Source: an uncultured Nitrospirota bacterium
GTDB lineage: Bacteria; CG2-30-53-67
NCBI GenBank assembly: GCA_947259355.1
Contig: CAMYMF010000023.1
Span: 1 to 64,000, forward strand
Direction: 5' to 3'
DNA: 64,000 nucleotides
The position numbers were made by a program, and so were the translations under genes. The notes under the pieces are model-generated. The model made no database searches. It worked only from the letters and a program-made list of their open reading frames with translations, and was not told where the DNA came from. Below, piece by piece: positions 27,382-32,511 of the stretch. Position 1 is the stretch's first letter. Each line of letters opens with the position of its first letter.

Positions 27382-28155
27382 CTACCCTGCGTCTTTCGGC
27401 ATTCCCGTTCCCGGGGCGGACCCAGGCGTCTGTCCTACGATTTCGAGCAGTTCGACATCGAAAATAAGAGTGGCATTCGGACCGATTTTCTGGCCGGCTC
27501 CGCGGGGGCCGTACGCAAGATCCGAGGGAATGAAGAGACGGTACCTGCTGCCGACCGACATCAACTGAAGCCCCTCGGTCCACCCTCGGATGACGCGGTT
27601 TAGATAGAAAGTGGCCGGCTGTCCCCTTTTGTGGGAACTGTCGAATTCCGTACCATCCAGAAGGGTTCCCGCGTAGTGGACGCGCACCTGATCCGAGGCC
27701 TTCGGTTTGGGGCCTGTCCCCTCAGTGACGACCTGGTACTGCAGACCGCTTGCCATGGTGACGACGCCCGCTTTCTTGGCGTTTTCAGCGAGGAAGGCTT
27801 CCCCGGCCGCGCGGTTCTTCTCCCCCGCAGCCGCCGCTTCTGCCGCTCGCTCTTCCCGGATCTTCTGCGTGTACTCCCGCTTGATCTCTGCCGCCTCCTC
27901 CGGAGGAATGCGGGGGTCTTGGGCATGGAAGCTATCCCGAAGGCCCTCGATGACCAGTTCCAGATCCAAACCGCTGTCTTGATTCCTGAGGCTGCTACCC
28001 ACATCCTGCCCGACGAGATAGCTGACCTTCTCCGTCGTTGTGGTCAATTCTTTCGAGGGCGCGGCCTCCTGGGTCGGCGGCGTTGCAGAGGGAGCACAGG
28101 AGGCAGCGGTGAACCAGAAACCCGCTGCCAGCAGCCATCGCAAGCATGGAGTCAT
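27382..28155 (-). CDS. FKBP-type peptidyl-prolyl cis-trans isomerase, exported lipoprotein
   Basis: 257 residues. Start ATG with AAAGGAA upstream. A signal peptide ends in TAASC (Cys20), so a periplasmic lipoprotein is likely. The FKBP N-terminal dimerisation and coiled region spans about 42-128 (KVSYLVGQDVGSSL; charged helix EEAAEIKREYTQKIREE), and the catalytic FKBP domain about 138-239 (VRVHYAGTLLDGTEFDSS, NRVIRGWTEGL, IPSDLAYGPRGAG). It resembles Mip/FkpA. It lies 130 bases after the 11-haem gene in the same direction; a chaperone role for the secreted cytochromes is a sensible inference. Confidence 0.92.
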   Translation of the reverse strand: MTPCLRWLLAAGFWFTAASCAPSATPPTQEAAPSKELTTTTEKVSYLVGQDVGSSLRNQDSGLDLELVIEGLRDSFHAQDPRIPPEEAAEIKREYTQKIREERAAEAAAAGEKNRAAGEAFLAENAKKAGVVTMASGLQYQVVTEGTGPKPKASDQVRVHYAGTLLDGTEFDSSHKRGQPATFYLNRVIRGWTEGLQLMSVGSRYRLFIPSDLAYGPRGAGQKIGPNATLIFDVELLEIVGQTPGSAPGTGMPKDAG

Positions 28156-28285
28156 CTTTCGTTCCTTTCTCTGAAAGCCGTGAGGACCTTGAGGAGAGAC
28201 GCAGAACCGCAAGAGCGGTGCAGAGCCACGGAGTCGGGTTTTTTATACCCGTCACACAGGCCTGTCGAAACATTGCGGCGCGCCC

Positions 28286-29725
28286 TCACTCCGGGAGGAA
28301 TGAGTTGTTGTGGTTGTGGCACTCCGTACAATCCTCTCCATCGAAATGGCCGACGTAGTTTCCGGTTCCGTCCAGGTCCCCCGGGGCGCGACCGTCATAG
28401 CGATGGTGGTTGGTCTGGGAATGACAGGTCTCGCAAACGTTCTCATTGAACGGCGCCCCGTCAGCGAAAGACCCCTCCCCTTCCCCGCTCGAGTACAAGA
28501 TCACACTGTCCGGATCGATACTTTGATTTATATATCGGCGAATGGCATCGATGTTCTCTCCTTCGGGGAACATGGGGTCATGACAGTCGATACACTCCGT
28601 GGCATAATCGTATTTCCCCGTGCCGCTGACCGCACTCGAGTGGGACCGACGGGTGCCGTGGCATTTGGTACACTCCTCGCTCGGAATGAAGGCCGAGAAC
28701 TGCGTATTGCCCTCGGGATCTACCAGATGGCAGAATTCACAATTGGCGATGAAGAAGTCGGTGTTGTGCGGCGGCGGTATGCCCAGACCCTCGGCACCGA
28801 AGGAGAAGGCAAACCCGTTCCCGTGTCGGTGACACTGGGTGCAGTTCTGCCGGTCAAAGTGCCCGACATAATTGCCGCCTGGATCGAGATCGCCCGGCGC
28901 CATCCCGTTTCGTCGGTGATGATTCGTCCGGGTGTGGCACATCTCACAGATATTCTCCTCGTGGGGCGGTCCGTCGGCAAAGGAGCCCGTACCCGTGGGC
29001 GCGATAAATTGGATGATGCTCTCCAGGGTCTGGCCGGTCACATTATTGAAGTAGGAGAGAAACCGCTTGATATACTTCCCGTAGGACGTGCCGAAAGCGT
29101 TGTTCTGTTCCTGTTCGTGTGGATTGTGGCAGGTCACGCATGCGGACACCCAGTTCCCATATTTCGTTCCCACAACGGTTGAATCATGTAGTTTTACGTT
29201 CGGGGCAGATCCGAACCCGTAGGGAAACGGCAAGGGGTACTGATCCTTGAGGGTCCCGTTCAAGGGGTCTGAGGTGTCACTGGAACTGGCGTGGCATCGC
29301 TGGCATTGAAACTTGAGGTTGCTCTGAAAGTTGTTCCAGTCGTGGCATTTACCGCACAGGAGCTGGATATTATCGGAGCGAATCGTTCCGTCCAGATTGC
29401 GCAGTGGCGACAGATGGGGGGCATCGTTTCCCGGATGGCAAGACCGGCCGTCATAGCTCACCGAATTGCAGCTCACCCCTGAGATGCCGCCCAGGAGGGT
29501 CGCCCCATGGCATTCGGTGCACTGCTGTGGATTGGCCAGAAAGGCGTCGGCATGAAACTCGCCGCTGTTTCGGTTCAACCAGCCGGAGACATGCTGGCCC
29601 GACTCGGAGAGGACCACCGCGCCGCCACTGGAACTCGAGCCCGAATTCGAGCTGCTGCACCCCACCGCGAACGCGGTAGCGATGAGTCCCAGGAGAACGA
29701 CAACTCTTCTCATCTGCGGTGGCAT
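28286..29725 (-). CDS. Eleven-haem c-type cytochrome lipoprotein
   Basis: 479 residues. The ATG at 29725 follows GAGAGG and overlaps the upstream gene's 3' end. Lipobox AVGC gives Cys23, followed by a Ser-rich linker. Eleven CxxCH motifs start at residues 69, 124, 141, 196, 260, 295, 329, 352, 378, 431 and 466. One further pattern, Cys86 to Cys96-His97, could be a non-canonical twelfth site. Residues about 248-305 and 418-476 are near copies (GSFADG, CE-CH, TNHHR, APGDLD, GNYVGHF, CT-CH), a duplicated two-haem module. Expected on the outer membrane, passing electrons to or from the outside. Confidence 0.93.
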   Translation of the reverse strand: MPPQMRRVVVLLGLIATAFAVGCSSSNSGSSSSGGAVVLSESGQHVSGWLNRNSGEFHADAFLANPQQCTECHGATLLGGISGVSCNSVSYDGRSCHPGNDAPHLSPLRNLDGTIRSDNIQLLCGKCHDWNNFQSNLKFQCQRCHASSSDTSDPLNGTLKDQYPLPFPYGFGSAPNVKLHDSTVVGTKYGNWVSACVTCHNPHEQEQNNAFGTSYGKYIKRFLSYFNNVTGQTLESIIQFIAPTGTGSFADGPPHEENICEMCHTRTNHHRRNGMAPGDLDPGGNYVGHFDRQNCTQCHRHGNGFAFSFGAEGLGIPPPHNTDFFIANCEFCHLVDPEGNTQFSAFIPSEECTKCHGTRRSHSSAVSGTGKYDYATECIDCHDPMFPEGENIDAIRRYINQSIDPDSVILYSSGEGEGSFADGAPFNENVCETCHSQTNHHRYDGRAPGDLDGTGNYVGHFDGEDCTECHNHNNSFLPE

Positions 29726-30153
29726 GCTTTGCACCTCTCGTTGTTGTTGCGGCCGTGGCATTTCATGCAGGAGGCCGGATTGATCCTTCCGTCGATGCGA
29801 TGCTGCTGCAGATAGTCGCCCCGGTGCGGAAGAAACCGTTGCGGCGAGTCCTTGAACTTGTCGCTCGGTTTGATCTCTTCCTTGTTGGCATGGCAGTCCG
29901 AACAGAAAGCATCCTGATGGCAGAGATTGCAGATCTGTTTCCGCTGGGCCGCATGGAATTTGTGTCGCACATTGAAATCGGCCGTATGACTCAGGGCAGC
30001 CAGTTCATCCTCGTGGCAATAACTGCACTGCGGCGCCTCTTCGAACTCCACGGGATGGACCTTGGGAAAGCTGGTGCGTACTGAGCAGGCGTACGTCAGC
30101 AGGTGGAGCGAAAGCAGCCCAGCCAGTCCCAGCAAGAGGTTCGTGCGTTTCAT
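29710..30153 (-). CDS. Pentahaem c-type cytochrome lipoprotein
   Basis: 147 residues. The ATG has AAGGAG 9 bases upstream; the frame is open for 20 more codons but without a site. Signal peptide with Cys23 in LTYAC as a likely lipidation site. Five CxxCH motifs at residues 43, 75, 84, 129 and 141, with many spare histidines (residues 56, 64, 67, 110, 118) for bis-His ligation. The segment QICNLCHQDAFCSDCHANKE and the ending CMKCHGRNNNERCKACHRR are typical of small cytochromes in Geobacter-type envelope clusters. It overlaps the 11-haem gene by 16 bases, so the two are co-expressed. Confidence 0.92.
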   Translation of the reverse strand: MKRTNLLLGLAGLLSLHLLTYACSVRTSFPKVHPVEFEEAPQCSYCHEDELAALSHTADFNVRHKFHAAQRKQICNLCHQDAFCSDCHANKEEIKPSDKFKDSPQRFLPHRGDYLQQHRIDGRINPASCMKCHGRNNNERCKACHRR

Positions 30154-30174: not shown

Positions 30175-30207
30175 AAAAAACAATGGCCGCGCTTGGCGCA
30201 GCGCGGC
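30175..30207 (-). terminator. Intercistronic terminator/attenuator between porin-cytochrome and pentahaem genes
   Basis: Reading the minus strand, a perfect 8-bp stem (30200-30207 with 30186-30193, GCCGCGCT/AGCGCGGC) with a 6-base loop is followed by 5 bases and then six T (30180-30175). It ends 22 bases before the pentahaem start codon. The offset of the T-run makes partial rather than complete termination likely. Confidence 0.6.
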
Positions 30208-30228: not shown

Positions 30229-32511
30229 TCACTGCTGCTTTACGTGGCACCCGGTGCACTTGACGGGCGCCGGTTTGCCCTGACCCGCCATCTCCTTGTG
30301 GCATCCCTGGCAACGCTTGTGCATGGCGTCCTTGAAACTGGGCACCCCTTCCATCGCGCCATGACACTCAGAACAGGCCGTCGGGGATAGTTCGGTGACA
30401 TCATCCATATGGTGGCAGACCTGGCAGTTCTGGTTGACGATCGACTGATGCTTGCGATGGGGGAACGGAACAGCGGGCATCAGTTTTGCCACATGATCGA
30501 TGAGGATGAATTCCGGCGAGGGAGGCGGCCCGGTCGGTTCAGGTTCAGGTTCCGGTTGAGGCTCAGGCTTGCTAACAGCCGTGTCCGGCGGGGTCTGCAC
30601 CCGCACGGGGGGCTCGGGCACCGGTGCCGCGGCGGGTGGTTCTGCCCACCGGACCGGTTCGCGAGGCATGGCGGGCTTCTCGATGACACCGGGCATCGGT
30701 TCCGGGGCAAAAATCGTCCGCTCCCTCAGCGCGGGATCCCGCGGATCGATGAGGCCCTTCTGAATGGTCGGCAGGGTTTTCACAAGCGGTCCGAGTCGCT
30801 GGAAATAGGCAGGAAGCTGCTCCACAGAGTGCTCGCCTTCCCGGCGCGAACCGTAGATGCCTGAAATCAGCGTGTAGGCGCTCCACCCCCGTACTCGGTA
30901 GGCCAGCACCATGGCATCGTAATCGGGAATGAGCCGCGCCAAGTCCTTGAGGATTGCCTCCCGGTCGGCGGAGATTTCGATCTGAATGGTATACTTGTCC
31001 TGCGGAATCGCTGCGATGCGCTCCCGCCAGGTTCCGAGCTGCGCCGTCCAACTCTCAGGCGTCATGGCGCCCGGATCGATGGGCGCCGCAATGGGCTCGA
31101 TCGTCTCCTCGACGATCTGCTGCGGACGCTTGGCCTCCGCAATCACCCGGGGCTCAACGACTCTGAGCTCCTCTTTGGGGGCTGTAGGCGCGGGCGGTGC
31201 GACGGCGGGAGCGGCCGGCACCGCTGCCATCTCGGGCTCCGTTTTGTCCCGTTGGAACCGCATCAGCGCAAGGGGCCCAAAATTATAGATGAACTTGATG
31301 AAACCTCGATAGTCATAGTCAAAGGTCGGATTGCGCGAGTATTCCACATCGGCCGCAATGCGCGCGTTCGCCGTGAGCCCGTAGCCCAACGCCGCGGAAA
31401 TCGCGTAGGCATTCTTGATGTCGTTGATCTTCTGGTCATAGCTTACATTGAAGACGTCGGCCGTCAGATCGAGCTTTCCGAACCGCCTGTATCCGTAAAC
31501 TCGAGACTCATAGTATTTGCGTCGCTCAGTTTGTCCGTCCATCCGGTAAAACGAAATGCCCGCGCGCGTGGTCTCCGAGTCGGTATAGTTGACACTGGCA
31601 CCATAATAGTCCGCGCGCTCCTCAATGTCATAGTCGAATCGCTTGTAGTCCGCGCTGGCCGACAGGTTAAAGGGAAGCATATAGGCCACTTGCACGCCCC
31701 AAAGGAAAAGCTCCTCATCGCGGTTGATGATCTCGGGGTCAAAAAAGAACGCTGCATTGGAGACGGAGGTGAAATAATCCTCGTAGCTGATGGCGGAAAT
31801 CTCCGAGCTGACCCGAAGCTTCTCCAGGGGCAGCAGGGTGAGGTAATAGCTGTGCTCCATCCACCCCGAGGTTTCGTCGTTGAGGGTAGACCGGCCGTTG
31901 ATGCGGACCCACTCAAAGGGAAAGAATTCTACATCCACGCCAGCCTCGGATCTGAAATCGGACGAATCGTTTTTTGCCCGCAGATAGGATAGACCGATCC
32001 GATAGAGATCGGACACTTCGTGAAAGAGCCGTCCCCCGAAAATGGAGTCCCCGTCCCGGTCATCGAAATCAGACTCCACAGGAATCCCGCCGTAGGCCGA
32101 GACCCCGAAGCCTCCCTTGAGATCAGTCCTGAAGGAAACCCCATCCACCAGTTCGGAGGCCACGCCCTCATAAACGAGTACACGGCCGAGGTTGAGCAAC
32201 GTGTTGCCCTGGGGCCTGCGGTACCCGAGATAGGCGTATTGTAGATCACCATTAAAGCTCCGGTTGTCGAAGCTCTTCTCGTTCGACAGATCCTGGCGAA
32301 GCCACCCGCCGAGATGAAGGGTCAGATCCCTCGAGGCAAACTCATCGAGACGAAAATCCAAATACTCGAAAAGCGGAAGAATGTGTTCGTCGTCAATGGT
32401 CTCCCGCGCCCGAAAGTATGTGCTCGACCGGCCGGTCACATCGACGGCCAACAAGGTACAGGGCATGACCAGAAGCAGAAGACCCACGATCGCTGTGCAG
32501 ACAAATCGCAT
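30229..32511 (-). CDS. Outer-membrane beta-barrel / SPOR / tetrahaem cytochrome fusion protein
   Basis: 760 residues. Signal peptide 1-22. Residues about 25-420 are rich in alternating aromatic beta-strands (for example GDLQYAYLGYRRPQ, RIGLSYLRAK, SADYKRFDYD, RGFIKFIYNFGPLALMRF), as in an outer-membrane barrel. An Ala/Pro linker (425-500) leads to a SPOR-like domain (about 505-585: KYTIQIEISADREAILKDL, WSAYTLISGIYGSRREGE), which in known cases binds denuded peptidoglycan. A Pro/Glu linker (590-665) leads to a class III c3-like domain (680-760) with CxxCH at 696, 713, 734 and 752 and ligand histidines H685, H688, H701. First gene of the cytochrome run. A one-chain pore plus haem arm is inferred; the barrel assignment rests on pattern, not homology I can name. 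Confidence 0.85.
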   Translation of the reverse strand: MRFVCTAIVGLLLLVMPCTLLAVDVTGRSSTYFRARETIDDEHILPLFEYLDFRLDEFASRDLTLHLGGWLRQDLSNEKSFDNRSFNGDLQYAYLGYRRPQGNTLLNLGRVLVYEGVASELVDGVSFRTDLKGGFGVSAYGGIPVESDFDDRDGDSIFGGRLFHEVSDLYRIGLSYLRAKNDSSDFRSEAGVDVEFFPFEWVRINGRSTLNDETSGWMEHSYYLTLLPLEKLRVSSEISAISYEDYFTSVSNAAFFFDPEIINRDEELFLWGVQVAYMLPFNLSASADYKRFDYDIEERADYYGASVNYTDSETTRAGISFYRMDGQTERRKYYESRVYGYRRFGKLDLTADVFNVSYDQKINDIKNAYAISAALGYGLTANARIAADVEYSRNPTFDYDYRGFIKFIYNFGPLALMRFQRDKTEPEMAAVPAAPAVAPPAPTAPKEELRVVEPRVIAEAKRPQQIVEETIEPIAAPIDPGAMTPESWTAQLGTWRERIAAIPQDKYTIQIEISADREAILKDLARLIPDYDAMVLAYRVRGWSAYTLISGIYGSRREGEHSVEQLPAYFQRLGPLVKTLPTIQKGLIDPRDPALRERTIFAPEPMPGVIEKPAMPREPVRWAEPPAAAPVPEPPVRVQTPPDTAVSKPEPQPEPEPEPTGPPPSPEFILIDHVAKLMPAVPFPHRKHQSIVNQNCQVCHHMDDVTELSPTACSECHGAMEGVPSFKDAMHKRCQGCHKEMAGQGKPAPVKCTGCHVKQQ

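Follow-up and report, generated by a model that had tools for sequence, protein, structure and literature searches.

The closest described relatives of the locus reported here are the Ext conduits of Geobacter (ExtEFG and ExtABCD; PMC6148476), with which it shares a homologous barrel gene followed by pentahaem and multihaem cytochrome genes in the same order. The relatives of those porins that were read, however, are barrels of about 430-450 aa alone, without the SPOR-like and c3 extension found in the present gene. Shewanella MtrCAB shares only the general idea of a porin combined with a haem wire, and no decahaem MtrA-like gene is present in the gene set of the window (the whole stretch of 64,000 nucleotides that was analysed). 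An earlier, sequence-only reading of this DNA had compared it with the Mtr and Omb-Oma-Omc conduits; its placement among porin-cytochrome systems holds, although the closest of these is Ext (ExtB/ExtE). Its premise that known conduits use separate proteins for pore and haem chain was too strong, as Cyc2 already unites a cytochrome and an outer-membrane barrel in one chain (PMC8406198). Cyc2 differs in having one N-terminal haem, a 16-strand porin and no wall domain (PMC8406198), whereas the fusion has four C-terminal haems and long linkers.

Barrels that carry a separate peptidoglycan-binding part in the same chain are known from OmpA and OmpM (OmpM: PMC10628300), but these are tethers and diffusion channels with other kinds of wall-binding part, and have neither haem nor a cytochrome operon. 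Class III cytochromes c are normally soluble periplasmic carriers, whereas in the fusion one is tethered to an outer-membrane porin. On our analysis, the novelty would lie in the domain arrangement barrel-SPOR-c3, the kind of conduit being already known: the protein would work like an Ext conduit tethered in the manner of OmpA or OmpM. For the passage of electrons across the periplasm, past the wall, to outer-membrane conduits, soluble carriers and direct docking have both been proposed; a third route, in which the conduit itself bears wall anchor and haem arm, becomes directly testable here.

One reading frame with three conserved domains

The window derives from the genome of an uncultured, groundwater-type Nitrospirota bacterium (G000). 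The plus strand has no 760-aa frame at 30229-32511; ORF reading places the coding frame on the minus strand (32511..30229), where barrel-like, SPOR-like and tetrahaem parts lie in one polypeptide at the positions first proposed for them:

30229..32511, minus strand: fusion gene, 760 aa, with signal peptide, Ext-type barrel, SPOR-like domain and tetrahaem c3 domain
32446..32511, minus strand: signal peptide, residues 1-22 (MRFVCTAIVGLLLLVMPCTLLA), from sequence reading and alignment with the orthologue
31276..32445, minus strand: predicted outer-membrane beta-barrel, residues 23-412, ExtB/ExtE family, about 20-21 predicted strands, from homologues, beta alternation and model/Foldseek
31069..31275, minus strand: linker 1, residues 413-481, Pro/Ala-rich (13 Pro in 69), loosely conserved with in-frame indels
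30736..31068, minus strand: SPOR-like domain, DamX type, residues 482-592 (core about 504-590)
30520..30735, minus strand: linker 2, residues 593-664, Pro-rich (24 Pro in 72)
30232..30519, minus strand: tetrahaem c3 domain, residues 665-760

The barrel is encoded as a separate gene in relatives, which is what one would expect if an assembly or frame artefact had joined separate genes here. We regard such an artefact as scarcely credible in view of three observations. First, another genome of the genus, assembled separately, has a full-length orthologue with 81% identity (G001; L017:6394-8703, CALZGC010000117.1). Second, selection follows the domains: between the two genes, barrel and c3 domain each have a dN/dS of 0.07 and the SPOR-like domain has 0.14, against 0.35 for linker 1 and 0.27 for linker 2. 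Lastly, the indels between them all fall within the linkers and preserve the frame. Purifying selection is strong on the three domains and much relaxed in the linkers; together with the in-frame indels, this indicates that all three are maintained in one chain.

A predicted Ext-type barrel and its cytochrome partners

The barrel profile matches a gene from a Geobacter-like genome (G043:C23:31570-32823, E 8e-88) that belongs to an extEFG-type gene set (L088). The G. sulfurreducens ExtB and ExtE proteins were compared through close relatives such as this one; the PpcA of G043 is 81% identical to a PpcA probe, and that probe has no identical copy among the searched genomes, so G. sulfurreducens is probably absent from the sample. 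Given the barrel homology and the extEFG- and extABCD-like gene sets of G043 and G033, we file the barrel in the ExtB/ExtE family of conduit porins, with a predicted role in electron conduction across the outer membrane.

Beta-strand alternation in the family profile lies 4.8 sd above shuffles, strand periodicity in the single sequence scores 3.5 (controls -1.5 to 0.6), and many family members show weak matches to porin families. A profile search of the PDB with 37 barrels returned no match, and no MtrB-type family model appears among the NCBIfam or Pfam hits of 37 barrel members, taken to an E of 1. The Foldseek matches listed for an AlphaFold model of the barrel alone are outer-membrane barrels, in keeping with the barrel first proposed for this half of the protein, but with TM scores of only 0.38-0.57 for a model of pLDDT 49 (60-80 in its last third). 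A full-chain model from a shallow, four-row alignment (pLDDT 34) was set aside for domain assignment. The barrel fold is best viewed as predicted, through homology and strand periodicity together with a model of moderate confidence.

Downstream of the fusion gene lie the following features:

30186..30207, minus strand: terminator-like hairpin with T run, in the gap between fusion and pentahaem genes (a similar one in L017)
29710..30153, minus strand: pentahaem cytochrome with lipoprotein-like signal, ExtC/ExtF-like, start assigned to the ATG after GGAAGGAG
28286..29761, minus strand: multihaem lipoprotein-like cytochrome, ExtD/ExtG-like, with 11 CXXCH and 1 CX9CH; true start probably near 29713

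The order barrel, pentahaem, multihaem (32511-28286, minus strand, in the window) is the same in L018, L019, L020 and L088, while the G001 contig (L017) ends inside the pentahaem gene. Most of the sets inspected have the barrel, then a small cytochrome with five haems and a PHRGDYLxxHxIDGR-like motif, then a multihaem, mostly lipoprotein-like cytochrome. The set in G043 is followed by YedY-like and NuoE-like genes, in agreement with the extEFG transcription unit, published as including a YedY homologue and a NiFe hydrogenase (PMC6148476); in G033 a multihaem gene is upstream of the barrel, as in extABCD.

A SPOR-like domain of the DamX type

A SPOR-like domain had been proposed at about residues 505-585, and profile searches bear this out. 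The Pfam SPOR model (PF05036) matches residues 504-567 below its curated cut-off (E 0.0024 and 18.6 bits for the domain alone, cut-off 21), and the NCBIfam DamX model matches residues 461-585 (E 8.4e-5). A profile of the domain and its paralogues (alignment A6) matches the SPOR domain of E. coli DamX (2LFV) over the whole domain (89 positions, E 6.7e-10), and this is its only significant match in the PDB. Q510 is equivalent to the glycan-contacting glutamine of DamX (Q351) and RlpA (Q270) and is invariant in alignment A6; Q351 is the one residue highly conserved across SPOR domains (PMC6895207). The basic residue K418 of DamX is likewise kept as K578, whereas S354 and W416 are replaced by I513 and L576. 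W416 has a key role in the septal localisation of DamX (PMC6895207), and the S354 and W416 positions vary among SPOR domains of known function.

DamX itself is a division protein of the inner membrane, unlike the fusion, in which the domain would hang from an outer-membrane barrel. Elsewhere in the window's genome, two large proteins (L022:5741-8425 and L022:14361-17102, plus strand) end in a DamX-like SPOR domain; each has a long N-terminal half, one likely TM helix and long low-complexity linkers, and is predicted to be bitopic. That related domains end predicted bitopic inner-membrane proteins, the usual SPOR layout, supports the SPOR-like identity.

An added tetrahaem c3 domain

The C-terminal domain has the hallmarks of a class III cytochrome c. 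The Pfam model (PF02085) matches residues 676-756 well above its cut-off (E 9.5e-13, 48.8 against 22.9 bits), four CXXCH motifs stand at 696, 713, 734 and 752, and histidines at the places expected for the distal ligands of c3 cytochromes (685, 688, 701 and 731) are all present. Its identity to the other c3-type frames of the genome is 43-55%; these frames begin with signal-peptide-like segments, and several stand alone and look soluble. The genome also encodes NapC/NirT-type candidate donors. As separate pentahaem and multihaem cytochrome genes still adjoin the fusion gene, the c3 domain is an addition to the usual haem proteins and not a replacement for them.

Separate fusions on the same barrel

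The barrel-SPOR-c3 order was found only in G000 and G001, of one genus, among about 950 genomes sampled; a search for the same order elsewhere, suggested by the sequence-only reading, thus succeeded in the second genome and nowhere else in that sample. Within the window's own phylum, 5 of 8 genomes have a relative of the barrel itself, and so do 94 of 141 genomes in the order to which L019, a Geobacteraceae bin, belongs. In the phyla of L018 and L019, relatives are present in 24 of 396 and 36 of 395 sampled genomes, respectively. Most of the relatives are open frames of about 420-500 aa that end with the barrel, judged by tabulated length, so that short extensions could escape where the sequence was not read. 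Some long frames, among them those of G825 and G570, owe their length to over-extended starts alone and were rejected as fusions.

Other fusions of the barrel do occur. In two genomes from one order of the L019 phylum (G668 and G933; L093:2767-4887, minus strand, and L122:1022-2992, plus strand) an Ext barrel is followed by a Pro/Ala linker and a C-terminal OmpA wall-binding domain (Pfam E 3.9e-22 and 2.2e-22, respectively). In G390 (L096:3908-5497, minus strand) a class I monohaem cytochrome c is N-terminal to the barrel (E 2.7e-9), and G978 (at the start of L129) has the same cytochrome c-barrel order, with a single in-frame TAG close to the junction. A tree built from 97 barrels puts the SPOR-c3, OmpA and cytochrome c fusions in three separate, well-supported places, each amid stand-alone barrels. 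From these separate places we read that wall binding and an extra cytochrome have each been attached to this barrel family more than once. The separate gains of wall-binding domains suggest that anchoring conduits to the wall may be generally useful. A literature search, with subscription journals mostly outside its coverage, returned no paper joining a SPOR domain with a multihaem cytochrome and no description of an Ext-like conduit bearing a SPOR or OmpA domain. As a separate observation, the Ext-type barrel at L036:1435-3102 (plus strand) carries a repetitive Pro/Ala tail of 120 residues with no terminal domain.

The OmpA fusions also bear on where the protein might sit. The sequence-only reading had the SPOR domain direct the conduit to division septa in particular, as sites enriched in denuded glycan. 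DamX is indeed the closest solved relative, and in E. coli, division proteins recognise denuded septal glycan through their SPOR domains (PMC6895207). We nevertheless consider septal placement unlikely: the residue equivalent to DamX W416 is leucine here, the mapped binding residues are kept only in part, relatives use OmpA domains instead, and localisation is not readable from sequence. OmpA wall-binding domains are not known to be septum-specific. Because relatives gained such a domain at the same place in the chain, a general wall anchor would be the more economical reading. The earlier proposal of a wall-anchored haem arm beneath the pore is supported as to an arm that could anchor and reach, with a general attachment to the wall favoured over the septum.

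A proposed wall-anchored haem arm

We think it probable, from the sequence comparisons above, that the protein serves as pore subunit in a trans-outer-membrane electron conduit of the Ext (ExtE/ExtB) type, to which a long periplasmic arm, anchoring and haem-bearing, has been added. As judged from family and gene order, the barrel would sit in the outer membrane and form, with the neighbouring pentahaem and 11-12-haem cytochromes, an outward haem wire. Both barrel ends would be periplasmic, as expected for an even number of strands. Linker 1 (69 aa) would lead to the DamX-type SPOR-like domain, which may tether the conduit to the glycan strands of peptidoglycan, and linker 2 (72 aa) would carry the c3 domain as a tethered counterpart to the soluble c3 cytochromes of the cell. 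This domain could take electrons from quinol-oxidising cytochromes of the inner membrane, or from soluble c3, and pass them to the conduit. By residue count (~0.3 nm per residue) the linkers could extend to some 20 nm each, which would let the haem arm span the periplasm. The recurrent OmpA and cytochrome c additions on the same barrel family support the reading of an added arm. As counterpoints, the genome encodes apparently soluble c3 proteins, so that a tethered c3 is not obviously needed, and the terminator-like hairpin parts the fusion gene from its two partner genes. The replacement of DamX S354 and W416, the Pfam SPOR score below its cut-off and the weakness of both AlphaFold models also count against it.

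Two other functions for the chain have to be weighed. It may be mainly a tether or spacer between outer membrane and wall, the SPOR-like domain contacting the wall or another protein and the c3 domain being a side electron store and not the main donor. Several stand-alone c3 proteins could feed the pentahaem protein directly, relatives manage with the barrel alone, and in G018 the barrel has a long Pro/Ala tail without a domain; but with a dN/dS of 0.07 the c3 domain ranks with the most constrained parts, and it keeps every haem motif, and elsewhere the Ext barrel is fused to another cytochrome, which makes this rather unlikely in our view. Alternatively, the protein may be a precursor whose linkers are cut after export, so that one soluble c3 and one SPOR fragment are freed for each barrel. 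Such processing would suit two Pro-rich linkers that are long and change fast, yet no conserved cut site was seen and in relatives the OmpA fusions are easiest to understand if the domain stays attached, and we hold cleavage to be very unlikely.

Within the preferred reading of an Ext conduit with an added arm, we more tentatively postulate, as a possibility that falls somewhat short of an even chance, that one chain combines pore, wall anchor and tethered shuttle in place of diffusing carriers, and that wall anchoring of conduits, which we found nowhere described, evolved repeatedly, through a SPOR-like domain in this genus and an OmpA domain in an order of another phylum.

Intergenic region and minor observations

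The gap between barrel and pentahaem genes measures about 75-85 bases and contains the hairpin in G000 and G001, as against overlapping or abutting genes in G004; this would fit the extra domains having been inserted at the barrel gene's 3' end. In a scan for terminator-like hairpins, such sites were no more frequent than in shuffled sequence. The hairpin-bearing gap might alter the ratio of barrel to cytochrome products.

At one position that appears to be homologous among the multihaem cytochromes, the second haem motif reads CXXCH in 25 cases and CX3 to CX11-CH in 27 others. This variable spacing suggests a candidate non-canonical, spacing-tolerant haem site, represented in the window by CX9CH. 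Directly downstream of the cytochrome genes, an FKBP-type prolyl isomerase with a lipoprotein-like signal is encoded (27382-28212, minus strand), which might aid the folding of the Pro-rich fusion protein.
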